NCBI GenBank assembly: GCA_019163175.1
Contig: JAFLKN010000016.1
Coordinates: forward strand, 124,001 to 188,000
Source: Prolixibacteraceae bacterium
GTDB lineage: Bacteria > Bacteroidota > Bacteroidia > Bacteroidales > Prolixibacteraceae
Reading direction: 5' to 3'
Length of the DNA: 64,000 bases
The notes below the pieces were generated by a model, which was given only the letters and a program-made list of their open reading frames with translations, made no database searches and was not told where the DNA came from. This document shows, one piece after another, positions 30,657-62,067 of this stretch. The position numbers and the translations under genes are program-made. Position 1 is the stretch's first letter. Every line of letters begins with the position of its first letter.

Positions 30657-31571
30657 ATGGGGCACAGGAAATATTTAAAAGACCGATTATTCATTTCATT
30701 CTTAATTCTCCTGATTTCTTTTACAATATGCGTTTCTGTTGAGGCAGCGGGTATTGATAAGAAAAATGCCTCAAAATCGGGTTGGTCTTTGGCTGCTTAC
30801 AATTTCGGAAGTCTTGGTAAACTTTCGCCTGAAGCACAAATTGACCTTCTGAAAAAAACAGGTTACAAAGGGATCATTTTAAGTTGCGAAACAAAAGAAG
30901 ACTTTCAAAATCTGGACAGGTACTTTGAAAAGGCCGGGAAGATCAAAGATTTTAAAATTGAAGCGGTTTTCGAACGGTACAACTTCACCGATTCAACATC
31001 CAGAAAAGAACGATGGAGAAAGGTAGTTGATAAGATTTCAGGTACCGGCGCCAAACTGTGGATCATTTTCGGGAAAAAGGCGGAAGGAATTACCGATGGT
31101 TTTATTGAAGCGAAATTGAGTGAAATGGTCAGCTATTCAGCGAGTAAAAAAGTTGAAGTGATACTTTACCCGCACAGCAAATGTTACATTGCCTCGGCTG
31201 AAACAGCGTTACCTTTTATTGAAAAGATTGGCCATCCCAACCTGAAACTGGCAGTGCACCTTTGCCATGAAATTCGTGCAGGAAACGGATCGCGTATAGA
31301 TCAGGTGTTTGACCGGGTTAAAGACCACATTGGCGCTGTTACGCTCGCCGGAACCGATTCTGTGGCCGATTTTTCGGCTCCAAAACTGATGGATAGCAGT
31401 ACCATTATGCCTCTGGGACGAGGAAACTACGACCTTAACCGTTTCCTTGAACCACTCCGGAATTCAGGATACAAAGGTGTTGTAGGGTTTATCAACTTCA
31501 AGATTGAAGAAGATCCGGAAACTTATCTCGATGCCTCCATGAAGGTTTGGAGGACATTAACTAAACAATGA
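30657..31571 (+). CDS. Exported TIM-barrel isomerase/lyase-like protein (copy 1)
   Basis: 304 residues with an N-terminal signal segment (about 1-31, ending V-E-A-A). The rest follows the xylose-isomerase-like/AP-endonuclease-2 TIM-barrel pattern, including repeated beta-alpha units with Y-K-G-I-I-L, K-L-W-I-I-F and G-Y-K-G-V-V. Similar exported proteins act as 3-keto-glycoside lyases or epimerases in Bacteroidota. Metal-binding residues are not obvious, so function is uncertain. It sits between a GH99-like gene and a sulfatase. Confidence 0.5.
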   Translation: MGHRKYLKDRLFISFLILLISFTICVSVEAAGIDKKNASKSGWSLAAYNFGSLGKLSPEAQIDLLKKTGYKGIILSCETKEDFQNLDRYFEKAGKIKDFKIEAVFERYNFTDSTSRKERWRKVVDKISGTGAKLWIIFGKKAEGITDGFIEAKLSEMVSYSASKKVEVILYPHSKCYIASAETALPFIEKIGHPNLKLAVHLCHEIRAGNGSRIDQVFDRVKDHIGAVTLAGTDSVADFSAPKLMDSSTIMPLGRGNYDLNRFLEPLRNSGYKGVVGFINFKIEEDPETYLDASMKVWRTLTKQ

Positions 31572-36877: not shown

Positions 36878-37975
36878 ATGAAACGACGGGATTTTACAAA
36901 ATCAGCGGGGATGGGTTTGTTAGCCATGCAATCATTTCCGGCTATTGCTCTCAATGAGGTTTTGAAAAAAGCGACTTCCGGTTCTACCAGAATTCCATTG
37001 GGTTTGTGCAACCATTCATTAAGGAGTTTAAATCTCAATGCCCAACAATTAATCGAATATGCCATTGAGAAGAAACTCGATTCTGTTTTGCTAAATACCT
37101 TCCAACCCTTTGATCTTCTTGATTCCGAATACCTTGCCGGATTAAGTAGATTGGCAAAAAGTAACAATGTGAGTATTTATATTGGAGCCGGAAGCATCAG
37201 CGAAAAATCGAAAAGCTTTTCTGGTAAGTACGGAAATGCTGCGACTTTACTGAAAGAAGGAATCCGTGTTGCAAAGACTGTTGGTTCGCCAATCGTTGGA
37301 GTACGCATTGGCTCAATAGAAGACCGGTATGTGGATGGTGGAATTGAAGTACACATCGAATCGGTTATGAACCTGATGAAATCGGTTCGTTCACAAGTTT
37401 TGGATGCCGGGATAAAATTTGCATTCGAGAATCATGCCGGCGACCTTCGTTCCGAAGAGCTTCTGGCACTAATCAATGAAACCGGAACTGATATTTGCGG
37501 AGCGCTGTTCGACCCGGCAAATGCAGTTTGGGCCATGGAAGACCCCATGAAAGCATTAGAAACCTTAGGTTCAACCATTGTTTGCACCAGCGTGCGCGAC
37601 CTTGCAGTGTGGGAAACAAACGAAGGAGCCATGTTTCAGGGAATGGCAATTGGCGAAGGAATGCTGGATTTCCAGAGCTATGCAAAAACAATGGTTGAAT
37701 TATGTCCGGGAGTTCCGCTGCATGTGGAAACAATTTCAAATTCGGCCCGACCGATACCTTTTTTTAAACCTGAATTCTGGAAAGGTTTCCCCAGGCTGAA
37801 AGCTACAGATATTGTTGATTTTTTAAACCTGGCAAAAAAGGGAAAACCTCTTGAAATTAGCACACCGCCAGTGGAAATTACTCAGAAAGATTTTGATATC
37901 GGGCTTCAACGCGCAGAGCTGATAAAAAGCTTCGATTACTTGAGAAAAGATTGCAATACAGGTTTAAAATCCTAA
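36878..37975 (+). CDS. Tat-exported TIM-barrel isomerase/lyase-like protein (copy 2)
   Basis: 365 residues. A twin-arginine signal (M-K-R-R-D-F-T-K) exports the folded protein to the periplasm. The rest is a xylose-isomerase-like TIM barrel with likely metal ligands in F-E-N-H-A-G-D, F-D-P-A-N and H-V-E-T-I. This is the fold of periplasmic 3-keto-glycoside 1,2-lyases and sugar epimerases. Use of Tat suggests a metal or cofactor loaded in the cytoplasm. It is two genes from a Tat-exported Gfo/Idh/MocA oxidoreductase, which could supply its substrate. Confidence 0.65.
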   Translation: MKRRDFTKSAGMGLLAMQSFPAIALNEVLKKATSGSTRIPLGLCNHSLRSLNLNAQQLIEYAIEKKLDSVLLNTFQPFDLLDSEYLAGLSRLAKSNNVSIYIGAGSISEKSKSFSGKYGNAATLLKEGIRVAKTVGSPIVGVRIGSIEDRYVDGGIEVHIESVMNLMKSVRSQVLDAGIKFAFENHAGDLRSEELLALINETGTDICGALFDPANAVWAMEDPMKALETLGSTIVCTSVRDLAVWETNEGAMFQGMAIGEGMLDFQSYAKTMVELCPGVPLHVETISNSARPIPFFKPEFWKGFPRLKATDIVDFLNLAKKGKPLEISTPPVEITQKDFDIGLQRAELIKSFDYLRKDCNTGLKS

Positions 37976-39362: not shown

Positions 39363-40712
39363 ATGACTTCAAGAAGAATATTCATTAAAAACGTAGCTGC
39401 AAGTTCAGCAGCTCTGGCCATTGGGGGCCTGGTCACAGGAATGTCGGCAAAAAGTTATCGCAACATAATAGGGGCAAACGAGCGCATTAATGTAGCTATG
39501 ATTGGAGTAAACAGCCGGGGTAAAAGTATGTCAGGAACATTTGCCGGCCAAAAAAATGCCAGTGTCAGTTGTATTTGCGATGTAGACGAAAGAGCGATTC
39601 CTAAAGCTGTTAAAGCGGCGATGGATGTCAACCCTGCCTTTACACCAAAGACCGAAAAAGACTGTCGCAAAGTTATGGAAGACAAAACGATTGATGCCAT
39701 TTACATTGCCACACCCGACCATTGGCATGCCCCGCTTACGATTATGGGTTGCCAGGCCGGAAAGCATGTTTATGTTGAAAAACCGTTAAGCCACAATCCG
39801 CACGAAGGAGAACTGGCTATCGAAGCAGCACGCAAATACAACTGTGTGGTTCAAATGGGTGCTCAGCGTCGTTCGGCTCCAATTCTTACACAGGGAATTG
39901 AAGAACTGCACAAAGGAATTATTGGCCGTGTTTATACCGCAAAAACCTGGTACACCAACGCGCGCAAGTCAAGTTCCCTGACTCCCGGAAATGTTCCGTC
40001 GTGGCTCGATTACGAACTCTGGCAAGGTCCTGCTCCACGCATGCCCTACAAAGAGGGGCTGATTCACTACAACTGGCATTGGTATTGGCATTGGGGAACT
40101 GGCGAAGCACTGAATAACGGAACTCATGAAGTTGATGTGGCTAGGTGGGGGCTAGGTGTTGATTTCCCGACTCGCGTTACTTCGGTTGGCGGGCGTTATC
40201 ATTATAAAGACGATTGGGAAACTCCCGATACACAAACCGTTGCGATGGAGTATCCCGGTGGGGTTTCTCTGGTTTGGGAAAGCCGGAACTCAAACGGCAG
40301 AAAAATTGAAGGTGCCGACCGCGGAATTATTTTTTATGGCGAAAACGGAAGCTTGGATACAGGCGACGACAGCTATAAAATATACGATCTGAATGGCAAG
40401 CTGTTAAAAGAAGTAAAATCAGCTGAGCCAGATACGAATGCATTACAAGGGAGAAATTTAGCCAGTCCCAACCTGGTAATGGACAGCCAGCATGTTGCCG
40501 ACTTTTTAGATGCGATAAAAAACAACCTCCGCCCGAACTGCGACGTGGAAACCGGATATAAAAGTGTACTAGCCATGCAATTGGGGAATATTTCGTGGCG
40601 TGTTGGCCGCGACCTGAATATTGATCCCAAAAACGGGCACATCATAGGCGATAAGGATGCACAAAAATTATGTAGTAGAACCTATGAAAAAGGCTGGGAA
40701 CCTAAGATTTAA
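39363..40712 (+). CDS. Tat-exported Gfo/Idh/MocA oxidoreductase
   Basis: 449 residues. Tat signal S-R-R-I-F-I-K, then an NAD-binding Rossmann motif (V-A-M-I-G-V-N-S-R-G), the family E-K-P motif in Y-V-E-K-P-L-S-H-N and a C-terminal alpha/beta substrate domain with N-N-G-T-H-E-V-D-V-A-R. Tat export would carry a tightly bound NAD. Family members oxidise sugar C3 for 3-keto pathways or act as GH109-type NAD-dependent glycosidases. With the two TIM-barrel proteins it suggests an oxidative cleavage route beside the hydrolases. Confidence 0.75.
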   Translation: MTSRRIFIKNVAASSAALAIGGLVTGMSAKSYRNIIGANERINVAMIGVNSRGKSMSGTFAGQKNASVSCICDVDERAIPKAVKAAMDVNPAFTPKTEKDCRKVMEDKTIDAIYIATPDHWHAPLTIMGCQAGKHVYVEKPLSHNPHEGELAIEAARKYNCVVQMGAQRRSAPILTQGIEELHKGIIGRVYTAKTWYTNARKSSSLTPGNVPSWLDYELWQGPAPRMPYKEGLIHYNWHWYWHWGTGEALNNGTHEVDVARWGLGVDFPTRVTSVGGRYHYKDDWETPDTQTVAMEYPGGVSLVWESRNSNGRKIEGADRGIIFYGENGSLDTGDDSYKIYDLNGKLLKEVKSAEPDTNALQGRNLASPNLVMDSQHVADFLDAIKNNLRPNCDVETGYKSVLAMQLGNISWRVGRDLNIDPKNGHIIGDKDAQKLCSRTYEKGWEPKI

Positions 40713-50382: not shown

Positions 50383-51615
50383 ATGAAACTAAACTTATTT
50401 TTAAGCTTCCTATTTTTTGCTTGTTTCAGTGTGCTGCAAGCCGCTGGTGAAAAAAGTATTCAGGATTTTGACGTAAAACCCGGCAACAGCGCGGCCGTGA
50501 ACAAAGTCAATCTGCAAAAAGCAATCGACTGGGCTTCGGTAAGCGGTGCAGCTTTGTTTGTTGAACCCTCCGACGAACCGTACTTTGTGGATGGCGGACT
50601 CGTCCTGAAAAAGAATGTTTCGCTTGTGGGCGTGCATGGCCCAACTCATCGTGGGACCGTTCATGCAACCAAAAAACAACCGGTTGGGAGTGTGTTTGCC
50701 ATTACCGACAAGGAAAATGCTTTTATTACTGTTGAAACTGGTACTCAAATTAAAGGCATTCAGTTTTGGTATCCCGAACAAACCATTAAAGATCCGGCTG
50801 CCATCATCCCATACAAGGCAACCATTCAGGTTTCGCAAACCAGCAGGGCGCAGGGCGTGTTTCTTTCGTGCCTCACTTTTTACGGCGAATACCTGGCATT
50901 CGATTTTAACGCCACCCGGAACAATCCCTGCGAATTAATGACATTTGAGCATTGCTACGGTTATCCGCTAAGTGGTGAATTTATCCGGATGGACTATTGC
51001 TACGATGTTCCAAGGATTCTGCATTGCCACGTAAATCCTGCCGCACAACGCTACATCGGCGGCCAGTACAGCCGAGCAGTTGTGGATGCCGTGATTGCAA
51101 AAAAAACGTTTGCCTACACCATCAACCATACGGATAATGCGCAGATTATCGACCTTTTTACCTTCGGAACGTATGGCGGAATTTTGCTCGATAGCGAATC
51201 GTACGGTCAGCTCACCAACTTTAATTTCGACTGTGTTGCTGTGGGTATTTTGAAACGTGGGAGCAATACGAAGAACCGTAACTGGCAAATTGCCCAAGGT
51301 TCAATTATTGCCAATACCGGCGAAAAAGTAGAAAATATTCATCCAATAATTATTGAAGGACAAGGCCACACTTCGCTAAGCAATGTAGAGGCATTTTCAG
51401 GCGGAAACGGTGCACTTACCACTGTTCCTGAAAACCAATCGTGGGATTTTATGCTGGTTCGGGGCGACAAAAAATTAACCGTTTCGGTGTGGGGAAGCCG
51501 CATGAGAAATTACGTCTCAAATTCGCCGGTAACGGTTGAAAATAAACAGGCAATCATCTACTTGTCAGGTTGTTTCGACAAGGATGAGAATTTATACAAC
51601 AAGACTTTTAATTGA
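50383..51615 (+). CDS. Exported right-handed beta-helix protein, function unknown
   Basis: 410 residues, signal peptide about 1-20. The body has the short repeated beta/turn pattern of a right-handed parallel beta-helix, and the opening N-L-Q-K-A-I-D-W-A-S is typical of pectate-lyase-3/GH28-like folds. I see no clear catalytic Asp triad of GH28, so it could be a lyase, glycosidase or binding protein. The PUL context (sulfated mannan) makes it a candidate for an unknown linkage. Confidence 0.55.
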   Translation: MKLNLFLSFLFFACFSVLQAAGEKSIQDFDVKPGNSAAVNKVNLQKAIDWASVSGAALFVEPSDEPYFVDGGLVLKKNVSLVGVHGPTHRGTVHATKKQPVGSVFAITDKENAFITVETGTQIKGIQFWYPEQTIKDPAAIIPYKATIQVSQTSRAQGVFLSCLTFYGEYLAFDFNATRNNPCELMTFEHCYGYPLSGEFIRMDYCYDVPRILHCHVNPAAQRYIGGQYSRAVVDAVIAKKTFAYTINHTDNAQIIDLFTFGTYGGILLDSESYGQLTNFNFDCVAVGILKRGSNTKNRNWQIAQGSIIANTGEKVENIHPIIIEGQGHTSLSNVEAFSGGNGALTTVPENQSWDFMLVRGDKKLTVSVWGSRMRNYVSNSPVTVENKQAIIYLSGCFDKDENLYNKTFN

Positions 51616-51636: not shown

Positions 51637-52569
51637 ATGCTGAAGAATCAATCCCCAAAAAGGTGTCGGAGTTTAAGTTTTCTAATTCTCTTTTTCGCAC
51701 TTTGTTTAAACCTACAGGTTGCCGGACAGACAGATACACAACCGGCAAACGCAGGTAAAACGCTGAAAATGATGACCTATAACCTGAAGTTTGCCAGCCC
51801 AGATTATAAACCATCGTGGGAAGTGCGGCGCGAAATGCAGGTGGAATTGATACGAAAATACAATCCTGACATTATCGGGACACAAGAAGGGCTGAAGGAA
51901 CAAATTGACTGGCTGGCCGATCATCTTCCTGAATATGTGGTAATTGGTGAAGGCCGCAAAGGCGGTGACGATGATGAACACATGGCCATCTTTTTCAAAC
52001 GCGATAAATTCCGGCTACGCGAAATGCAAAGTTTTCAGCTTTCCGAAACGCCTGAAATCATCGGTAGCGGACCCGAAGTCAATCCACGCATGGTTACCTG
52101 GATGCGTCTGGCTGTAATCAACCGTCCAGCTGATGGCGAAAAAAGCCAGCACCCGCAGGATTACAGGGGACATTGGGAAAACACAAAGGAATTCTACGTT
52201 TTCAATACCCATTACTTCAACGGGCGGATTGATACGCTGGCCAGGCTGAATGCCTCAAAATTAATCCTGAAAAGAGTTACTGCCCTGAATCGGTTTGGCT
52301 CCTGGACACCCGAACGTCCGGTATTTCTGATGGGTGATTTCAACTGCCGTCCGGGCAGCGCTCCTTATAAAGTGTTAGTGGGCGAGAAGAATTCGACAAA
52401 TCCCGATTTGTTTAAAAACTCATTTGAAGATCCCGGAAAAATCGACTGGATTTTGTACAAAGGAGCTGTAAAAGTCTTGAAATACGAAGATGTTGATTTC
52501 AATGTAACCGGGGTGTATCCATCTGATCACAAACCGATATACGTTGAATTTGAGGTTAAGGATAAATAG
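51637..52569 (+). CDS. Exported EEP-family phosphatase/phosphodiesterase
   Basis: 310 residues, signal peptide cleaved near V-A-G-Q. The endonuclease/exonuclease/phosphatase fold is complete: Asn49 in M-T-Y-N, Glu84 in T-Q-E-G, His192 in T-H-Y-F-N, Asp234/Asn236 in G-D-F-N and Asp297-His298 in S-D-H-K-P. I recall that a similar EEP protein in a gut yeast-mannan PUL is a mannoside phosphatase, so this one may remove phosphate from phosphomannan. It precedes a second phosphatase-like gene by 15 bases. Confidence 0.75.
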   Translation: MLKNQSPKRCRSLSFLILFFALCLNLQVAGQTDTQPANAGKTLKMMTYNLKFASPDYKPSWEVRREMQVELIRKYNPDIIGTQEGLKEQIDWLADHLPEYVVIGEGRKGGDDDEHMAIFFKRDKFRLREMQSFQLSETPEIIGSGPEVNPRMVTWMRLAVINRPADGEKSQHPQDYRGHWENTKEFYVFNTHYFNGRIDTLARLNASKLILKRVTALNRFGSWTPERPVFLMGDFNCRPGSAPYKVLVGEKNSTNPDLFKNSFEDPGKIDWILYKGAVKVLKYEDVDFNVTGVYPSDHKPIYVEFEVKDK

Positions 52570-52584
52570 AAAAAATATGCGATC

Positions 52585-53955
52585 ATGAAAAAATCTGCTG
52601 CCTTACTGTTTTTGCTGATAAGTTTCAATATAACAGCGTTTTGCGGGAGAATAATTTATCCCTGGAGGGCTACAACTGCCATCGTAAAAAGTGGCGAGAG
52701 TTTTGAAGTCTGGTTCAATGCCGACCCTGGGCAAACGGTTAGTTCAGCACAATTAAATGGTCCATACAATACTATCGTAGCACCTATAAAAATTAATACC
52801 GGCAATTGGATTTACGATGTTACATCTCAAAACACTTATAATACAAAAATTACGGTTAAAGTCCCGAAATCGGCGCCAGCCGACCGTTACGATATTGTGC
52901 TGAATACTTCCACCGGAATGGTTGAATCGCAGGCTGGCGTGAAAGTTATAAAAGAATATAAATCAAATTATTATATTCTTCATTTCTCTGACATTCATGC
53001 TTTTCAGAATGGATATGCAACCACTTTGAACCGGCTTTCAAATATCATTAATATTGCCAATATCATCAATCCTGAAATTGTATTCAATACAGGTGATAAT
53101 TTGTATCGGCCCACGGAAGAACGAATGAACCAACTATTTTCCGGTAACAACCCCAAAGGGCACAAAGGTTTGAACCAGCTTAATGCAGCAGTATTTTCGG
53201 TAGCTGGCAACCACGATATAGATTTTGACAAAATACCAGAAGAAGGATTTTACAAAGAAAAGTCGGATTGGTGGAATAACTGGTGGGGATTACAAGCTTA
53301 TCATTTTAGCTACGGAAATGGGCGTTTCATGGTGATTAATAACGGATGGAATGGATTTAATCCTGCCCAACAAATAACTGAAATACAATCCTGGCTTCAG
53401 GAAGCAGGTACGGGTAATTTCAGGCTTGGAGCAGCACATATCAGGAACAAAGAAATGTTGCCTTTCGACAGCATCGCCAATCTGGAATTGGTGTTGATTG
53501 GTCATAACCACAACATTGCAAATCAAAATCCCACGCCCCTGAAAAATAAACCCATTCAATATATTGTAAATTCGGTTAGGGATCACATGGAATTCAACCT
53601 GTTTAAAGTGAATGATAAAACAGGTGAATCTACTCCTGTCAGCGGACCAACAGCGCAGGTTGTGTATGTCGAAAACCCTGATGATAGCAAAACGCCGGCT
53701 TTGTATCGGCCAAAACTCAGGTTAACCTATGCTGAAACCAATGACGGTTCATTTGCAACCAATTCTGCTACCATTGTCAACAATTTTGATTTTGCGATTG
53801 AAGGTGCAAGAGTGCGTTTTGTAATGCCATTGGGTAGGAAATACAAAGTTACGAATGGGAAAGTCGAACAAGCGTTTGTTGGCGCCTCGGTACACGTGGT
53901 TGATGTACTGATTGATCTTAAACCGAACAGCACCACACAGATTAAAATTTTATGA
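52585..53955 (+). CDS. Exported calcineurin-like metallophosphoesterase
   Basis: 456 residues. Signal peptide about 1-20, an Ig-like N-terminal domain (about 25-125), then a metallophosphoesterase domain with all motifs: D-I-H, G-D-N, G-N-H-D, a lone His in A-A-H-I, and G-H-N-H. A C-terminal beta domain follows (about 350-456). It probably acts on a phosphoester or phosphodiester in the periplasm. Its TGA stop overlaps the ATG of the symporter, so the two are coupled. Confidence 0.75.
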   Translation: MKKSAALLFLLISFNITAFCGRIIYPWRATTAIVKSGESFEVWFNADPGQTVSSAQLNGPYNTIVAPIKINTGNWIYDVTSQNTYNTKITVKVPKSAPADRYDIVLNTSTGMVESQAGVKVIKEYKSNYYILHFSDIHAFQNGYATTLNRLSNIINIANIINPEIVFNTGDNLYRPTEERMNQLFSGNNPKGHKGLNQLNAAVFSVAGNHDIDFDKIPEEGFYKEKSDWWNNWWGLQAYHFSYGNGRFMVINNGWNGFNPAQQITEIQSWLQEAGTGNFRLGAAHIRNKEMLPFDSIANLELVLIGHNHNIANQNPTPLKNKPIQYIVNSVRDHMEFNLFKVNDKTGESTPVSGPTAQVVYVENPDDSKTPALYRPKLRLTYAETNDGSFATNSATIVNNFDFAIEGARVRFVMPLGRKYKVTNGKVEQAFVGASVHVVDVLIDLKPNSTTQIKIL

Positions 53956-56153
53956 TGAATTTAACCTTCTGGGGGCTATCCCTTCTCGATATTGCAATAG
54001 TGGTAATCTATTTTATTGCCATTGTAATCATTGCCTTTCGCGCAGCCCGATTGGTAAATAACCGTGAAGATTATTTTATGGCCGGAAGGCGGTTTGGTAA
54101 GTTGATTCAAACTTTTGCTGCTTTTGGACAGGCTACTTCTGTTGAAAATGTTACCACCACTACCACCATGGTAAACTCCAATGGGGCATCAGGAATTTGG
54201 GCGATGCTGGCTGGTGGGTTGGCAAACCTGCCGGTTTTCTGGATGACATCCATTTGGTACCGCCGCCTTCGAATGCTAACACTGGGCGATTTCTTTGAAG
54301 AACGCTATGCCTCAAAACGTATGGCTGCGTTTTATGCGCTGTGTCAGACTATTTTCTTTGTTTTAATTGCCGCGATTGGTTTGGTTGCCATGTCCAAAAC
54401 CATATCAGCTATTGCGTCAAAACCTGTATCTGAATTAAATGCAGTTGAAAGGCTTGAGTATGAAAAAGCGGCTGAAAAGGAAAAGCTGGAAGCGGCTGAT
54501 TTTGCTTTGCTTTCAGCCGATCAGCAATCGCGTTTGGTTGAATTGCAGTTGCTGAATCCTAAAAAAGAATATTCCTACGTTAACGAAAACTGGCTGATCA
54601 TGATTGTTGCCCTTATTACCTTGCTGTATGCCAGTATTGGAGGACTTGCGGCAGCATTTATCGTTGATCTGATTCAAGGCGTGTTTATCATTTTGCTTTC
54701 CATTTTGCTGATTCCTTTTGCGATGGCTAAGATAAATCTGCAATTTGGCAGTACGGGTTTTCTGGGCGCCTTCGAAACCATGCACAAGGTTTTGCCGGCT
54801 TCGTTTATGGAGATTTGGGGCTCACCAAGTCTGATTGAGTTTTCTTGGTTCTGGATTGCTGGCTTTTCGGTCATGATAATTTTCACAACGGCTGTGCAGG
54901 CCAACCAAATGACAGCCTGTGGATCGGCAAAAAACGACTATACCGCCCGTTATGGTTTTGTTTCAGGAATGCTGCTCAAGCGCTATTCAAGCGTCATGTG
55001 GGGAGTGGTGGCATTAATGACAGTAGTGCTGTACGGTGGCTCAATTTCCGACCCCGACTATGTTTGGGGCCATGCCACCCGTGATTTGCTCGGGCCATTA
55101 AATCTTGGATTAGTTGGGTTGATGATTGCCTGTCTGATTGCTGCACTAATGGCTGCAAAATCGGCTTTTATGCTTACCGCTGCTGCGCTGATTACTAATA
55201 ATTTGTACCGTCCGTTTCGTCCGAACTGTTCAGAGACCCATTACATTTGGGCCGGGCGAATATTCAGTGCTTTTTATATGTTTTTTTCGGCATACATTGC
55301 CACACAGTCAAAAGGGTTATTCGAGCTCTTTAAAATGACCATGATGTTCAATTGCATACTGGCTGCCGCTTTTTGGCTGGGCATGATTTGGCGTCGTTCC
55401 AACCGCGCAGGGGCATGGGCATCGATGGTTGTAATGTTTATAGCTACTGTGATATTACCCTTTGGTATGCCATGGTTTCCGGGTATGCATTCTTCGGAGT
55501 ATTTAAGCAAAACAACCCAGACAATTCCGGTAACCAGAGCCTACACTGCCCGTGAAATGGATGTTCAGCAACGCAATGAAGCCATTCTTACATGGGATAA
55601 ACTGAATGCCATCGGAAAATCCGAAGGAGAACGTCCCTCGGTTCTTAAAACAGGAGAAAAATTTGAAAAAAAGGTGCTGCTTCCCCAAAAATCTATTTTC
55701 TGGAGTGAAGGTATAAATTACTCAAGCGGACAGGCTGTCGGAAAAGGTTATTTGAAGGTAGAATTAATTGCGCTGGATCGCATGGGATGGGATTTATCCA
55801 AAAACTCTTATTCGCTGAACGAAACGCTGACTTTCCTTTTCCGCATCATTTTCCCATTTATGATACTGATGTTGGTGGCTTTTTTCACTAACCCAATTGA
55901 GAAAGAGCGATTAGACCAATTCTACGGAAAGTTGCTTACACCTGTGGTTGGCGAAAGCAGTGAGGAAGATGATCGTGAAATGGTGCTGACCCGTGCCAAT
56001 CCGACACGCTTTAATCACCTGAAGATCTTCCCCGGCTCGAACTGGGAATTTCGCAGGTGGAACCGCGAAGATTGGACCGGCGTTGTCGGATCATGCATCG
56101 CAGTTGTAAGCGTTGTGGCTTTGTTGATTCTGATTGTGAGTTTAGGAAGTTAG
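53952..56153 (+). CDS. Sodium/solute symporter (SSS family)
   Basis: 733 residues, long for the family. The SSS pattern of about 13-14 membrane helices is clear, with R-N-R-E-D-Y-F-like (N-N-R-E-D-Y-F-M-A-G-R-R) near residue 37 and a soluble charged insert around 150-200. The C-terminal third has another soluble part before the last helices. It probably imports a released monosaccharide, perhaps mannose, into the cytoplasm, with GH130 directly downstream. Four-base overlap with the upstream gene. Confidence 0.8.
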   Translation: MMNLTFWGLSLLDIAIVVIYFIAIVIIAFRAARLVNNREDYFMAGRRFGKLIQTFAAFGQATSVENVTTTTTMVNSNGASGIWAMLAGGLANLPVFWMTSIWYRRLRMLTLGDFFEERYASKRMAAFYALCQTIFFVLIAAIGLVAMSKTISAIASKPVSELNAVERLEYEKAAEKEKLEAADFALLSADQQSRLVELQLLNPKKEYSYVNENWLIMIVALITLLYASIGGLAAAFIVDLIQGVFIILLSILLIPFAMAKINLQFGSTGFLGAFETMHKVLPASFMEIWGSPSLIEFSWFWIAGFSVMIIFTTAVQANQMTACGSAKNDYTARYGFVSGMLLKRYSSVMWGVVALMTVVLYGGSISDPDYVWGHATRDLLGPLNLGLVGLMIACLIAALMAAKSAFMLTAAALITNNLYRPFRPNCSETHYIWAGRIFSAFYMFFSAYIATQSKGLFELFKMTMMFNCILAAAFWLGMIWRRSNRAGAWASMVVMFIATVILPFGMPWFPGMHSSEYLSKTTQTIPVTRAYTAREMDVQQRNEAILTWDKLNAIGKSEGERPSVLKTGEKFEKKVLLPQKSIFWSEGINYSSGQAVGKGYLKVELIALDRMGWDLSKNSYSLNETLTFLFRIIFPFMILMLVAFFTNPIEKERLDQFYGKLLTPVVGESSEEDDREMVLTRANPTRFNHLKIFPGSNWEFRRWNREDWTGVVGSCIAVVSVVALLILIVSLGS

Positions 56154-56184: not shown

Positions 56185-57201
56185 ATGATGAAGACTGATG
56201 ATAATGTGGTAAGAAAAACAGCTTTAATTGCGGATGCTGTTCCCAATATGCCGTGGGAACCAAAACCGGCCAATTGCAAAGAAGTAGTCTGGCGACACAG
56301 TACCAATCCGATAATCGATTTACACCCAATGCCAAAGGCTCGCAGTGTTTTCAATAGCTGCGTAATGCCCTGGGAAGATGGTTTTATTGGCGTTTTTCGG
56401 GTCGATTCGCTATCAATGGATCCAAATCTGCATTTGGGAAAAAGTCCCGACGGAATTAACTGGACCATTGAAGAAGATCCTATCAATTTCATTTCGTCCG
56501 ATCCGGCGTTGGGCAAAATAACAGTAGCCTACGATCCGCGTTTGTGTAAAATTGAAGACAAGTATTACATCACCTGGTGCAATGCCTATTATGGCGCTAC
56601 CATCGGTCAGGCATGGACAACCGATTTCATAACTTTTCATCAGATGGAAAATGCCTTTTTGCCATTTAATCGCAACGGGGTGTTATTCCCGAAGAAAATC
56701 GGTGGAAAATATGCCATGCTTAGTCGCCCGATGGGCTTGGGAATGGCGGTAAACTACGGTGATATTTTTTACAGCGAAAGTCCCGATTTGACTTATTGGG
56801 GAAAACACCGCATTGTTTTCACACGCGGTCCCGGCAAATGGGAACGTGTGAAAATTGGCCCGGGACCCATCCCAATCGAAACTACCGAAGGTTGGTTGTT
56901 ACTGTATCACGGGGTAACTGATACCTGCGACAGCTTTGTTTACAGCATGGGAGCAGCCATTTTGGACATTAACGAACCATCAAAAGTGCTTTATCGTTGC
57001 AAATTCCCGCTTATGACTCCCGAAAAAATTTACGAAACTGCCGGTTACGTAGGAAATGTGATATTCCCTACAGGTGTAGTGGCCGACGGAGCAACTGGTC
57101 GCTTAGCTATATACTACGGTGCCGCTGATACTTACACAGCGATTGCCTATGCCAATATAGATGAGATTATTGCTTACGTGAAAGAGAATGCTTGGAAGTA
57201 A
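56185..57201 (+). CDS. GH130 beta-mannoside phosphorylase
   Basis: 338 residues, no signal peptide, so cytoplasmic. A five-bladed propeller pattern with the catalytic Asp117 in Y-D-P-R. The phosphate-binding residues expected of GH130 phosphorylases are present: Arg72 in F-R-V-D, Arg163-Asn164 in F-N-R-N-G, Lys223 in V-K-I-G-P-G-P, His242 in L-Y-H-G and Asp315 in G-A-A-D-T. It therefore should phosphorolyse a beta-mannoside to mannose-1-phosphate, rather than hydrolyse it. This implies that the target glycan carries some beta-linked mannose, or that an intermediate does. Confidence 0.78.
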   Translation: MMKTDDNVVRKTALIADAVPNMPWEPKPANCKEVVWRHSTNPIIDLHPMPKARSVFNSCVMPWEDGFIGVFRVDSLSMDPNLHLGKSPDGINWTIEEDPINFISSDPALGKITVAYDPRLCKIEDKYYITWCNAYYGATIGQAWTTDFITFHQMENAFLPFNRNGVLFPKKIGGKYAMLSRPMGLGMAVNYGDIFYSESPDLTYWGKHRIVFTRGPGKWERVKIGPGPIPIETTEGWLLLYHGVTDTCDSFVYSMGAAILDINEPSKVLYRCKFPLMTPEKIYETAGYVGNVIFPTGVVADGATGRLAIYYGAADTYTAIAYANIDEIIAYVKENAWK

Positions 57202-57232: not shown

Positions 57233-59494
57233 ATGCAAAAAATAGATGATTTTTCGATGGAGTTAAACTTCACCGAAACCTACCGGAGAAATATCAATGA
57301 GCACATTGCCATTCGGGAAGCAAGATGCCATCAGGCACAGTTCCCGGCCGTTCTTACCGAAATTCAGGACAACGACCGTCTGGCAGGACGTACATTCTGG
57401 GGATGGGTCGGTTTTAGTCCACACAATGCACCCAATGGTGCTGCCTACGGTTATTTCTGCCACGAACAAAAGATCATCGAAGCCATCGAACGTGGCAATA
57501 TTCCTTTGGAACAGCGTGATGGGGTGCACGAATTGCTTCACTTCTGGAAAAAAGAAACCTCGAAAGCTAAAGTGGAAGCAGCTTTTACCGAAAAAATGCT
57601 TCCCGTGCTTTTTCGCGATGAAATAGTTTCGCTGCCATACAATTTCAAGCCTCTGATTGCTAATCCTATTTATCGTATGGCCGGCGTTTTTGTTGATTAC
57701 GAAAAGCTACTTCGTTTGGGTATTCCGGGATTAAAGACTGAAATTACGGAATACATGGAAAAATCGAAAGCATCAGGTGGCGATTACAAATTATATGAAG
57801 GTATGTTGATTGCCCTGGATGTATTTACTGAATCTTGTCGTCATTACGAAAAACAAGCACTTGAAAAAGCACAAATAACTAATGATCCAAAAAGGGCAAA
57901 AGAGCTTTTTCAACTTGTGAAAGTCTTGAAAAAAATTACGGTATCTAAGCCCGAATCATTCTACGAAGCCCTTCAATTGTCATGGCTTTATACCTTAATT
58001 TGCGGCTCCCTGGAATTGGGTCGGGTGGATGTTTATCTGGGCGATTTTTATGTAAATGATATTGATAACGGCATAATTACAGAAAAAGAAGCGCTCTCGC
58101 TCATGCATTCGTACTGGCGACTGATTAACGAACTGTTCCGCGATGTCGACGGTCGGGTGATTATCGGTGGTCGTGGTCGCAGAAACGAAGCCAATGCTGA
58201 CCGGTTTGCATTGTTGGTGCTCGAAACCATGCGTACCTATGGACGTGCAATTCTGCCACAAACAACGCTGCGCTTTTACGAAGGGATGAATCCGGAATTG
58301 ATGGAAAAATCCATCTCGCTCATTGGAGATGGACACACGTTCCCTTTGCTATACAACGACGATGTGCTTGTTTCGGGCGTGGCGGCTGCCCACGATGTTC
58401 CGGTGGAAGATGCAGAGCAATACATGCCACTCGGGTGCGGTGAAATTGTAATTGACCACATGGGATTTGGAACACCAAGTGGCTCGCTGAATGTATTGAA
58501 AGCGCTGGATGTGACCCTGCGCAATGGTGTGGATCATATTTCAGACAAGCAACTCGGACTTCAAACCGGTCATTTGAAAGATTTTAAAACCTTTGATGAG
58601 TTTTTTGATGCCTTCAAAGAACAACTGGCTTTCTTTATTGAAATTTTGGCCGATCACGAAGAATTGGAATATTTAGAGTCGGGCAAACAAGCTCCTTACC
58701 TTTATTTGAGCATATTGTACGACGATTGTATCGCACGAGGGAAAGCCATTTTCTCCGGAGGAATAAAATACCTGGGTGGTTCGTTGGAATCGTTTGGTAG
58801 TGTAAATACAGCCGATAGTTTAACTGCAATCAAAAAAATGGTTTTCGACGAAAAGCTGATTTCGGCTGAAGGGTTACTAGAAGCGCTCAACAACAATTTT
58901 GTGGGCTTCGAAAAAGAACACAAACTGCTGAAGGAATGTCCGAAGTATGGAAATGACGACAAGTACGCCGATGATATGATGGTCGAGTTGCATGACTATA
59001 TGTGCAACACTATACGCGACCAGCGCGATAGAACAAACCTCGACTGGTATCTGAATGTGTTGATTAACAACAAGCAAAACACCATTCTGGGTCGTTGGGT
59101 GGGCGCTTCTGCTGACGGACGAAAAGCTGGGCGCGAAATGGCGAATGCCAATACTCCGGCCGGAGGAAACGACAAAAAAGGGGTTACAGCGCTTATCAAT
59201 TCATTGGTTAAACCAAGTCATGCAATACATGCCGGAACAGTGCAAAATATGCGGTTTGGACGAGATTTCTTCACCAATGACCGTACAAAATTTGAAGTCA
59301 TTCTTCATACTTACTTTAAAAAAGGAGGGGCACAGGCCATGATTACGGTGATTAACCGGGGTGATTTGGAAAATGCACTGGTTGAACCCGAAAAGCACCA
59401 GGATTTGTTTGTGCGTATTGGTGGTTTCAGTGCCCGCTATATCGATTTGCCGCGCGATGTTCAGTATGAGATACTTAGCCGTGTAACTTATTAG
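57233..59494 (+). CDS. Glycyl radical enzyme (eliminase type)
   Basis: 753 residues from ATG 57,233, chosen because it clears the GH130 stop. Two hallmarks are clear: the thiyl Cys402 in M-P-L-G-C-G-E-I, with Glu404 (C-x-E, as in dehydratases and C-N/C-S lyases, and not the C-C of pyruvate formate-lyase), and the glycyl radical Gly731 in R-I-G-G-F-S-A-R-Y near the C-terminus. It is paired with an activating enzyme 9 bases downstream. It should eliminate water, an amine or sulfite from a small, oxygen-containing substrate in the cytoplasm without oxygen. The active-site surroundings (C-G-E rather than C-V-E) do not let me assign a known subtype. Confidence 0.78.
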   Translation: MQKIDDFSMELNFTETYRRNINEHIAIREARCHQAQFPAVLTEIQDNDRLAGRTFWGWVGFSPHNAPNGAAYGYFCHEQKIIEAIERGNIPLEQRDGVHELLHFWKKETSKAKVEAAFTEKMLPVLFRDEIVSLPYNFKPLIANPIYRMAGVFVDYEKLLRLGIPGLKTEITEYMEKSKASGGDYKLYEGMLIALDVFTESCRHYEKQALEKAQITNDPKRAKELFQLVKVLKKITVSKPESFYEALQLSWLYTLICGSLELGRVDVYLGDFYVNDIDNGIITEKEALSLMHSYWRLINELFRDVDGRVIIGGRGRRNEANADRFALLVLETMRTYGRAILPQTTLRFYEGMNPELMEKSISLIGDGHTFPLLYNDDVLVSGVAAAHDVPVEDAEQYMPLGCGEIVIDHMGFGTPSGSLNVLKALDVTLRNGVDHISDKQLGLQTGHLKDFKTFDEFFDAFKEQLAFFIEILADHEELEYLESGKQAPYLYLSILYDDCIARGKAIFSGGIKYLGGSLESFGSVNTADSLTAIKKMVFDEKLISAEGLLEALNNNFVGFEKEHKLLKECPKYGNDDKYADDMMVELHDYMCNTIRDQRDRTNLDWYLNVLINNKQNTILGRWVGASADGRKAGREMANANTPAGGNDKKGVTALINSLVKPSHAIHAGTVQNMRFGRDFFTNDRTKFEVILHTYFKKGGAQAMITVINRGDLENALVEPEKHQDLFVRIGGFSARYIDLPRDVQYEILSRVTY

Positions 59495-59503
59495 ATGGTT
59501 TAA

Positions 59504-60412
59504 ATGAGCAAAAAAGCGATAGTTTTTGACATTCAGCGGGCATCCTTGCACGATGGACCCGGTATTAGGACAACAATCTTTTTAAAAGGTTGTCCGCTGA
59601 ATTGTCTTTGGTGCCACAATCCTGAAGCTACTTCTGCTCATCGACAGTTGTTCTTTCATTTCGACAAATGCACGCAATGTGGCGATTGTGAAAAAGTATG
59701 CAAGGAAGGTGTAACCCATTTTAATGATGGGAAGCATACGATAGATTACCATAAATGTAAGTTTTGTGGGAAATGCGTTGATGCCTGTAATTTCAATGCC
59801 TTGAAGATTACAGGTACAGAAATGAGCATAGAAGAGGTTATGCTTGAAATTATGGCCGATGTGGATTTTTATACAAATTCAGGAGGTGGAATGACCCTTA
59901 GTGGGGGAGAACCCTTAATGCATTTTTCCTTCTCGTTGGAACTCCTGAAAAAATGCAAAGAGATGTGTGTGAATACATGCGTTGAGACTTCCGGATTCGT
60001 ATCGACCATTCAGTTTAATCAGATTCTGCCTTATGTAGATCTTCTGCTTTTTGATTACAAAGTTACAGGCACAAGCGATTATATGAATTTTACAGGAGTA
60101 CCAAACAAACTTATACTGGAAAATCTCGACATCGCCTATCATCATGGAGTCCCGATAATACTTCGTTGTCCCATTATTCCGGGAATTAATGATACGGATC
60201 TACATTTTAAGGGTATACATGCTCTTAATGAGGAGTACCCGAATCTAATTGGTATCGAAATATTGCCTTACCATACGATGGGCAACAACAAAAGAACTAG
60301 CATCGGTTCAGAAGAAACACTTACTCATCTGAAAACAGTACCTCCTGAAGTTTCAGATAAATGGATCGAACTCTTGAAAAATTTAGGATGCGAAAAGGCT
60401 AAAATAGGTTAA
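59504..60412 (+). CDS. Glycyl radical enzyme activase (radical SAM)
   Basis: 302 residues. The radical-SAM cluster motif is C30-x3-C34-x2-C37, followed by two ferredoxin-type clusters (Cys 56, 59, 62, 66 and Cys 85, 88, 91, 95). Two extra clusters are typical of activases of non-PFL glycyl radical enzymes. It uses S-adenosylmethionine to make the Gly731 radical in the gene upstream. A 9-base gap links the pair. Confidence 0.9.
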   Translation: MSKKAIVFDIQRASLHDGPGIRTTIFLKGCPLNCLWCHNPEATSAHRQLFFHFDKCTQCGDCEKVCKEGVTHFNDGKHTIDYHKCKFCGKCVDACNFNALKITGTEMSIEEVMLEIMADVDFYTNSGGGMTLSGGEPLMHFSFSLELLKKCKEMCVNTCVETSGFVSTIQFNQILPYVDLLLFDYKVTGTSDYMNFTGVPNKLILENLDIAYHHGVPIILRCPIIPGINDTDLHFKGIHALNEEYPNLIGIEILPYHTMGNNKRTSIGSEETLTHLKTVPPEVSDKWIELLKNLGCEKAKIG

Positions 60413-60417
60413 GTCTA

Positions 60418-62067
60418 ATGAAAAGGAACAATGTGTATATGAATACAATTCGAAACTTGGCAACCGGATTAGCAATGTTGTCAATCAATACCGGCACAAC
60501 AGTAGCCACCGAAAATCAAACTAATCGTTTGAAGAAAAAACCGAACGTGATCATCCTTTTTTCCGATCAGCACAACAAGGACGTGATGGGATTTGAAGGT
60601 CATCCGGATGTGTTGACACCCAATCTGAATAAACTGGCAAAGCAGTCGGTGGTATTCGACCGTGCCTATTGTTCGGTTGGAATATGTGCACCCTCCAGAT
60701 CATCATTAATGTCGGGTATTTATCCCCGAACGATGGGATTGCTTTCCAATAGTGAAAGAACAACTGTTATGGGGGAAGTAGTTTCACTAGCATCTGTTTT
60801 CCAGCAGAACAACTATCGAACCTTTGCTTTTGGGAAACGACATACACATGGAGGTGTTGATGGTGGCTGGGATGTGCAGCGAAGCCATTTATGCGATGAG
60901 ACTCCGGGGAACAGTTATACCGAATGGGTCGAAAAAAAAGGTTATGCTAAAGAGTTTGCCATGGACTGGGCCGCCGAATTCGGAAAAGGTTCACCATGCT
61001 CATCACTATCCAATGAAAAATATCCAACAGCTGATCTGGGAACACGCATCTCGGTCCTTCCCGAAAATATGACAATGGAGGCTTTTACAACCCAACTAAC
61101 AGTTCAGATGATAAAGGAACAGGCTAAAAGCGATCAGCCATTTTTTTGCTGGACTACCTTTTACCGGCCGCATCAGCCTTATACTCCACTGAAAAAGTAC
61201 ATGGATATGTACAATGTTTCTTCATGGGGAGAGGGCAGAAAGAATGGAAGTTCAATTCGAAAACCTGCCAGTCTTTACGAACCGAAGGAGAATATTCCTC
61301 CAATGATGCAATCGATCCGAAATGGCGACAACATGGTTTGGAATATTAACAAAGCCTTCGTTGATGAGCAGATCTGGCGCAATTACATTGGAGCATATTA
61401 TGCGCTGGTAACCGAAATCGATCATTGTGTGGGTGAAATACTCCAGACGCTTGATGAGGCCGGCATTGCTGAAGAAACAATCGTAATATACACTTCCGAT
61501 CATGGCGATTTTGTTGGTAATCATGGCATGGTTGAAAAAGCTGCACTCGGGCAAAATGTGTATGAAGACATTTTAAATATTCCTTTGATTATCCGTTATC
61601 CGGGAAATAAACAAAAGGGCAAGCGAACTGCAGAGCTTGTCAGTTTGGTGGATATCTATCCAACGCTGGTTGATTTGCTCGGCCTAAAAATGCCAAAATT
61701 GAAGTATCCGATTCAGGGACAATCAATTGCTGCAACGCTCACCAAAGGGAAGCCGATGAAAAGGGAGTATTTTGTATCCGAAAGCTGGTCGCAGGCAACG
61801 GTGATTACCAAAGACTACAAATTGGGAATCATGCTTGACCCCACTGATTATGCACGCAAATTTGACTACCGGTCGTTTGGCGATCAGTTTTTTATCCGGA
61901 AATCTGATTCCCTCGAGATTAAAAATCAAATCAATAACGATGGTTATAAGGCTGAAATAGAGAAGCTAAGACGATACTATCAGAATTTTACCTCCCAAAT
62001 GCCGGACATCGGTAAACAGGAAGTAATAACTACTTCAGTGGACCCCAAAAATCAGGAGAAAAAGTAA
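60418..62067 (+). CDS. Type I sulfatase (copy 6)
   Basis: 549 residues, signal-like N-terminus (about 1-31). L-F-S-D-Q-H-N-K opens the fold, formylglycine site C90-A-P-S-R-S-S-L-M-S-G, and S-D-H-G-D-F-V-G-N-H-G late. It is the last gene of the catabolic operon, 6 bases after the activase gene, and no terminator is seen immediately after it; one lies 314 bases downstream. The closest relation in the window is not obvious. Confidence 0.82.
   Translation: MKRNNVYMNTIRNLATGLAMLSINTGTTVATENQTNRLKKKPNVIILFSDQHNKDVMGFEGHPDVLTPNLNKLAKQSVVFDRAYCSVGICAPSRSSLMSGIYPRTMGLLSNSERTTVMGEVVSLASVFQQNNYRTFAFGKRHTHGGVDGGWDVQRSHLCDETPGNSYTEWVEKKGYAKEFAMDWAAEFGKGSPCSSLSNEKYPTADLGTRISVLPENMTMEAFTTQLTVQMIKEQAKSDQPFFCWTTFYRPHQPYTPLKKYMDMYNVSSWGEGRKNGSSIRKPASLYEPKENIPPMMQSIRNGDNMVWNINKAFVDEQIWRNYIGAYYALVTEIDHCVGEILQTLDEAGIAEETIVIYTSDHGDFVGNHGMVEKAALGQNVYEDILNIPLIIRYPGNKQKGKRTAELVSLVDIYPTLVDLLGLKMPKLKYPIQGQSIAATLTKGKPMKREYFVSESWSQATVITKDYKLGIMLDPTDYARKFDYRSFGDQFFIRKSDSLEIKNQINNDGYKAEIEKLRRYYQNFTSQMPDIGKQEVITTSVDPKNQEKK

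Follow-up and report, generated by a model that had tools for sequence, protein, structure and literature searches.

Glycyl radical enzymes (GREs) that act on sugar-derived compounds are known from Escherichia coli, where Ma et al. describe the conversion of 1,5-anhydroglucitol-6-phosphate and 1,5-anhydromannitol-6-phosphate to 1-deoxyfructose-6-phosphate by the glycyl radical enzymes YbiW and PflD (PMC12441222), and many abundant GREs are reported to be still without a function (PMC11574389). In polysaccharide breakdown, a Polaribacter locus for diatom sulfated α-mannan is described as combining GH92 enzymes and sulfatases with an endo-enzyme distantly related to GH99 (PMC13063451). Here we describe a GRE and its radical S-adenosylmethionine (SAM) activating enzyme, encoded in a polysaccharide locus of a Prolixibacteraceae bacterium within a 64,000-nucleotide stretch of contig JAFLKN010000016.1 (the window, whose numbering is used throughout). 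The GRE gene recurs downstream of a GH130 mannoside phosphorylase with an altered loop, and we propose, with a probability of about one half, that the enzyme is a cytoplasmic C–O eliminase (dehydratase) whose polyhydroxylated substrate, a sugar or polyol, reaches the cell via mannoside breakdown, the likeliest candidate being the aglycone freed by the neighboring GH130.

The window locus shares GH92 enzymes, sulfatases, and a GH99-distant endo-enzyme with the Polaribacter locus and differs from it in its GH130 and radical enzymes, as neither "GH130" nor "radical" appears in the main text of the Polaribacter paper (PMC13063451). The window GRE would resemble YbiW and PflD in using a sugar-derived polyol in carbon catabolism, whereas those two enzymes are linked to a phosphotransferase system and the window GRE to a sodium:solute symporter (SSS) and a GH130. 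A preliminary description of this DNA, made from the letters alone, held that a glycyl radical step in glycan catabolism would be new; that statement was too strong, because the sugar-linked chemistry of YbiW and PflD had already been reported (PMC12441222). The apparent novelty is a subfamily of GREs with a fixed place next to a specialized glycan phosphorylase within polysaccharide loci: no published case of a GRE so placed was found in a limited search of open-licence PMC papers, and in PMC8950772 and PMC13027841 the term "glycyl radical" occurs in the reference lists only. Such a system would bring radical chemistry into polysaccharide catabolism and establish a new GRE subfamily that has a clear, testable partner.

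The glycyl radical enzyme and its subfamily

The GRE reading frame runs on the + strand from an ATG at 57233 to a stop at 59494 and encodes 753 residues. An alternative in-frame ATG at 57188 would overlap the GH130 gene, and all 13 relatives with 78–90% identity align to residues 1–753, from the 57233 start. Both superfamily domains are present, with 380 bits for the PFL-like domain (PF02901; cut-off 24.3) and 55.8 bits for Gly_radical (PF01228; cut-off 22.2). The thiyl motif G401-C402-G403-E404 (58433–58444) supplies the thiyl cysteine, C402, and the glutamate of the Cys-x-Glu signature, E404, and carries a glycine at the position where other eliminases have valine or isoleucine. The glycyl radical loop, RIGGFS (59414–59431), contains the radical site, G731, and D266 is retained in the family alignment. 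Directly downstream, the activase (59504–60412, + strand) scores 321 bits on TIGR02494 (cut-off 174.35) and contains a radical-SAM CX3CX2C motif at residue 30 and two CX2CX2CX3C motifs for additional, ferredoxin-type [4Fe-4S] clusters. By these motifs the protein is a GRE of the Cys-x-Glu eliminase type, complete with a cognate activase, as the preliminary description had read it; no second PF02901 gene was found in the genome as assembled (5.92 Mb, 96% complete). The N-terminal half, noted earlier as unusual, is so in the sense of divergent sequence and shortened loops in the alignments. An AlphaFold model of the GRE, built with 15 mostly close sequences, was set aside because its mean pLDDT was 54.5.

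The replacement of Cys-Val-Glu by Cys-Gly-Glu, also pointed out in the preliminary description, is real and extends to the whole subfamily. After removal of repeat copies we compared 64 GREs, 26 of which form the family (at least 40% identity to the window GRE) and 38 of which are other GREs (about 31% or less). They came from a related-locus search (14 loci), from whole-genome searches, and from a Persicobacter psychrovividus plasmid (39–40% identity). The motifs GCGE, GTP[SN][GA], and INN occur in 26 of 26 family members and in none of the 38 others; RxGGFS occurs in 25 of 26, the remaining row ending at a contig edge, and again in 0 of 38, 36 of which read R[VI][AST]GY[SAT] in the glycyl loop. 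A QAM motif, under a strict pattern, is found in 18 of the 26 and in 0 of 38. The family is patchy in its distribution. A GRE with at least 40% identity was found in two of 295 genomes drawn from the order, the window's own included; at E 1e-90, 8 of 395 genomes drawn from the phylum (own included) gave a match; a draw from one family gave 8 of 79 at 1e-110, and a class draw gave 1 of 395, the window's own. These draws overlap, with overlaps retained, and in the large ones only some first-look candidates were scored per genome.

The GRE was then scored on NCBIfam equivalog models, with positive controls from the same library passing for CutC (1612 bits), HypD (1220 and 1175), and PflD (1489). 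None of the GRE equivalog cut-offs was reached by the window protein. The best equivalog score was for HypD (NF043068; 308.7 bits against 1100), a model that two of three order GREs scanned with NCBIfam do belong to, followed by the sulfopropanediol dehydratases HpfG (NF048009; 277.2) and HpsG (NF048011; 263.1), both against 1000 and both without a positive control, and by the choline trimethylamine-lyase CutC (TIGR04394; 246.2 against 1050). The score on NF007437, which we take to be the PflD model, was 222.1 against 1109, and the arylacetate decarboxylases gave 187.6 against 1150 (HPAD, NF033715) and 196.2 against 1100 (IAD, NF033718), without a positive control. On the PFL2-3 subfamily model TIGR01774 the window GRE reached 316.9 bits against a cut-off of 678.2, a threshold that the two HypD controls likewise missed (662.9 and 608.4). 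Pyruvate formate-lyase (PFL) differs in having Cys-Cys where the window protein has GCGE, and TIGR01255 gave 77.4 against 994 bits.

In terms of solved structures, the best sequence match is glycerol dehydratase (GDH; PDB 1r8w, E 4.9e-80), also a GRE eliminase with Cys-x-Glu; the match to IslA is weaker (3e-49). However, the positions equivalent to GDH H164, H281, Y339, and D447, which we assume to be its substrate contacts, are gaps or proline in the window GRE, which lies in a separate clade and in a mannoside context. Unlike in propanediol- or glycerol-type systems, none of the scanned window genes is of the microcompartment type. In a quickly built tree with 37 rows, the family forms a single clade (SH-aLRT 100) whose stem measures 2.47 changes per column. 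The tree comprises 19 of the 26 family members, 7 of 28 order GREs, CutC, CutC-like, propanediol dehydratase (PDD), YbiW-, PflD-, and PFL-labelled plasmid rows and two more, a partial GDH, and an XSS-labelled chain; IslA, HpsG, HPAD, and a proven BSS have no row. The family falls outside the GDH/PDD clade and outside 8iof, the sole XSS-labelled row, and the HypD rows make up another starred clade. The YbiW- and PflD-labelled rows, 26% identical to the window GRE, sit on separate branches; the family does not group with the YbiW row (L066), a label that, like that of PDD, is annotation plus our own reading, and the control scans showed no YbiW equivalog model. With a PFL outgroup that was marked as a long row and several unresolved deep forks, the deep branching order is not settled. 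Taken as sequence evidence, these results indicate that the GRE belongs to a discrete subfamily apart from the known subtypes tested, in agreement with the earlier impression. A placement among choline or 1,2-propanediol enzymes, which the preliminary description had named as the outcome that would count against its idea, was looked for and did not occur.

A cassette with an altered GH130 phosphorylase

The preliminary description placed the GRE/activase pair between the GH130 phosphorylase and the last sulfatase in one operon, and the spacing bears this out: 31 nt separate GH130 (56185–57201, + strand) from the GRE, 9 nt the GRE from the activase, and 5 nt the activase from the operon-closing sulfatase (60418–62067, + strand; PF00884, 168.6 bits). 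Thirteen related loci contain a GRE with 78–90% identity and are labelled Bacteroidota, Planctomycetota, or Verrucomicrobiota (or genera within Bacteroidota or Verrucomicrobiota), and one further locus, at 50%, comes from a Kryptoniota record; all 14 records are metagenome-assembled genomes. Within the group that includes the window, clade A, the order transporter–GH130–GRE–activase is recurrent, and the flanking genes vary while the cassette stays constant. Counting the window, 12 of 14 clade-A loci carry a GH130 gene upstream of the GRE; the two loci without it, L044 and L045, have 394 and 0 bp of upstream contig. The activase adjoins the GRE in 13 of 13 relatives, at an identity of just 57–72% (the copies in L048 and L049 were located by tblastn). 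An SSS symporter, 67–85% alike, lies upstream in 9 of 13; L047 has a 45% relative downstream of the GRE, and none was seen in the L044, L045, and L049 loci. With four GH130 matches in the genome and one gene per 1.2 kb, we estimate the chance of a GRE adjoining a GH130 at about one in a thousand; the clade-A loci are not independent draws, because they are related by descent or transfer.

The GC content of the GRE genes follows that of their flanks, with GC3 ranging from 22 to 81%, so that the GRE looks resident and not mis-binned. The Verrucomicrobiota copies are 78% identical to the window GRE in protein and 69% in nucleotide sequence, which indicates purifying selection. Together these comparisons argue for genes that are resident, transferred, and strongly constrained rather than for mis-binned contigs.

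The window GH130 (PF04041, 218 bits; β-1,4 type by similarity) retains the YDPR, NRNG, SRP, and KIG motifs in the alignment, including the basic, phosphate-binding motifs NRNG, SRP, and KIG of GH130_2. In one place it is altered: TM1225, Uhgb_MP, and RaMP2 read RPSDxGHT, whereas the cassette GH130s read RPMGxG.A..Y, so that the window protein has MGLGMAVNY (56731–56757, + strand) in place of S-D-x-G-H-T. After RP, all 12 cassette GH130s follow the pattern MGxG[ML]A[VI][ND]Y, which is more apolar; the changed loop is found in 0 of 20 other GH130s read, all of which keep SD.GHT. These 20 are the genome's own second copy (L076) and L082–L100, with eight further matches that had no locus excluded. 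In Uhgb_MP, the histidine of the ordinary loop presumably packs against the sugar at +1. GH130 enzymes are described as having a +1 subsite that is not highly conserved and that likely reflects the acceptor (PMC4599007). The cassette GH130s are 72–94% alike, and the nearest others in the 295 + 395 genomes reach at most 57%; the window enzyme is 54–55% identical to TM1225 and Uhgb_MP, both of which cleave β-1,4-mannosides (PMC8950772). Because the basic residues of a phosphorylase are kept while the loop is the cassette's own (12 of 12 against 0 of 20) and the identity gap is wide, the aglycone handled by the cassette enzyme is probably an unusual one.

Proposed reaction and competing readings

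The GRE would be the natural user of that aglycone, and the changed GH130 is the main argument for the mechanism that we favor. The anatomy of the GRE and activase, the subfamily, the GH130 linkage, and the changed loop are read from sequence; the radical steps are carried over from the family, and the substrate class and leaving group come from context. The GH130 would phosphorolyze an imported β-mannoside to mannose-1-phosphate and the aglycone. The activase, with SAM, would generate the radical on G731, from which it would pass to C402 as a thiyl radical, and C402 would abstract hydrogen from a C–OH carbon of the substrate. The adjacent C–O bond would then break and water leave, with E404 and D266 shuttling protons, roles that we assume by analogy, to give a deoxy aldehyde or ketone. 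Water as the leaving group is our choice; methanol, phosphate, or another alkoxide is possible. For isethionate, the same order of radical steps has been proposed on the model of CutC and of propanediol dehydratase (PMC6386719). The preliminary description also allowed for a sulfo or amino group as the one removed, and nothing in the sequence favors loss of sulfo/sulfate, or of an amino group (ammonia from GlcNAc), over water. Its suggestion that the substrate is a sugar-derived product of the glycan is partly supported: gene context ties the GRE to mannoside breakdown and not to choline or propanediol, and this glycan would be a candidate source of the substrate. As aglycone we considered a uronic acid, in view of a described GH130 phosphorylase for Man-GlcA (PMC8950772), and erythritol or another polyol.

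The recurrence of this oxygen-sensitive enzyme beside a mannoside-splitting one in different bacteria suggests an oxygen-free step in the breakdown of mannose-rich polysaccharides. If so, it would reveal a way for bacteria living without oxygen to exploit those unusual sugars of such glycans that others may attack with oxygenases. The paired GH130 would also serve as a probe, as the aglycones that it accepts should name the GRE substrate, a handle seldom available for orphan GREs.

The distant members of the family, clades B and C, give a broader context. Seven clade-B loci were examined (L051 and L053–L058), with L074 and L075 available as sequence only. All seven have an AraC-type regulator adjoining the GRE; an aldo/keto reductase and GH92 relatives are each present in 6 of 7, genes of the nucleoside-hydrolase-like and ABC sugar-binding kinds in 5 of 7, and a PhyH gene in 3 of 7, with representatives of these assignments confirmed. 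In L059, an MFS sugar transporter and a GH130 (54%) lie within 6 kb of the GRE; in L060, DeoC lies at 3.5 kb and a GH2 protein containing mannosidase domains at 13 kb; and in L061, on P. psychrovividus plasmid pPP4 (NZ_AP025296.1, 188339–226438), PhyH directly precedes the GRE, with GH20 and sulfatases present and deoC/rbsK about 15 kb on. The reductase, kinase, and deoxy-sugar aldolase genes near these members would suit a product that is a deoxy sugar or a deoxy polyol. Mannoside-enzyme genes lie near 20 of 24 loci counted (clade A 12 of 14, clade B 6 of 7, clade C 2 of 3), a count for which no chance expectation was computed. In L051, L054, L058, and L061 the GRE has a gene for an Fe/2OG dioxygenase (PhyH) nearby, which sets an oxygen-using beside an oxygen-free enzyme.

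Several observations weigh against the aglycone proposal. No GH130 relative was seen in the stretches around the GRE in the seven clade-B loci examined, and the L059 GH130 keeps the ordinary loop, so the aglycone reading leaves part of the subfamily uncovered. Genes for GH92 and GH130 are frequent in bacteria of this kind, and the neighborhood counts are raw ones, read without a null. No enzyme for a deoxy-sugar product was seen repeatedly next to the clade-A cassettes, the clade-B-type aldo/keto reductase appearing in clustering in L048 only. Among the 295 + 395 genomes, a cassette-type GH130 was found in the window's own genome only. Within clade A, the 394 bp upstream in L044 contain the end of another gene, for a probably secreted protein, and in L039 the GH130 and the GRE are separated by 2.4 kb with two other genes.

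The other product of the GH130 offers a different substrate: acting on mannose or mannose-1-phosphate, the GRE could remove the C2 hydrogen and expel the C1 phosphate to give 1,5-anhydrofructose, or lose OH-2 to give a 2-deoxy lactone. The mannoside-enzyme genes near two of three clade-C and six of seven clade-B members would suit this reading, and YbiW and PflD provide a precedent for anhydrosugar radical chemistry (PMC12441222). We nevertheless regard it as unlikely, as it leaves the changed GH130 loop unexplained, cheap ordinary routes exist for mannose, and the subfamily stands apart from the YbiW- and PflD-labelled rows of the tree and misses the PflD cut-off. The more apolar loop would instead be accommodated if the leaving group were an alkoxide, with methanol released from an O-methyl sugar as the simplest case, making the GRE an oxygen-free O-demethylase. 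The four loci with PhyH look as if oxygen-using and oxygen-free enzymes shared one substrate, and CutC and IslA demonstrate that GREs can expel groups besides water (PMC11574389, PMC6386719); yet no relative of these PhyH proteins is found in the clade-A loci clustered, PhyH families are diverse in function, and we consider an O-demethylase distinctly unlikely. The wider version, in which the subfamily splits a sugar C–O–C bond, either an O-methyl ether or the aglycone bond, by radical elimination coupled to phosphorolysis, we hold to be quite unlikely. Were it true, the GRE would be the oxygen-free counterpart of oxygen-using demethylation of algal sugars, and both halves of the imported mannoside would be kept under anoxia.

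That the locus placement is incidental and the substrate is one already known for GREs (glycerol, 1,2-propanediol, choline, hydroxyproline, sulfonates, or arylacetates) is very unlikely: the fold family is shared and the best solved relative is glycerol dehydratase, but no equivalog cut-off was reached, the four assumed GDH contacts are not kept, the signature positions set 26 of 26 members apart, and the link to GH130 is shared across phyla. It is extremely improbable that the protein is not a GRE or is a decayed copy. Although identity to other GREs is low, at about 24–31%, the thiyl motif is intact in 26 of 26 and the glycyl loop in 25 of 26 (a truncated row accounts for the exception), the protein and nucleotide identities to the Verrucomicrobiota copies point to purifying selection, and the activase is intact.

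Two side observations concern distant members. In L060, a contig-truncated family GRE (3–1961, − strand) opens with a twin-arginine-like leader (MNNQSRRRFLKQS...), which is unexpected for a cytoplasmic radical enzyme; of 23 related genomes, it was found in its own alone. Four IMG/VR viral contigs (L104–L107) encode distant GREs with 23–24% identity.

The surrounding polysaccharide locus

The polysaccharide locus spans 17283–62067 on the + strand. Upstream of the GH130 lie an endonuclease/exonuclease/phosphatase-family protein (51637–52569; PF03372), a calcineurin-type phosphoesterase (52585–53955; PF00149) with relatives in seven clade-A loci by clustering, and the SSS symporter (53952–56153; PF00474), whose closest solved relatives are SGLT1 and SGLT2, at weak similarity (SGLT1, E 6.7e-9). 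The remainder, 17283–50343, encodes a SusC/SusD pair, which together with the nearest relatives points to Bacteroidota, four GH99-like proteins, each scoring below the Pfam cut-off, three GH92 enzymes, five sulfatases (six in the locus, counting the last gene of the operon), and Gfo/Idh and TIM-barrel proteins. The target glycan is probably a mannose-rich polysaccharide of the sulfated α-mannan type and of algal origin.

Two TIM-barrel proteins and one Gfo/Idh protein (30657–31571, 36878–37975, and 39363–40712) have, by our reading, export-type leaders, and these exported-type proteins recall oxidized-sugar pathways. A 410-residue protein (50383–51615) has zero Pfam matches, looks β-helix-like by eye, has a 90% relative in L042, and is possibly a new carbohydrate enzyme.

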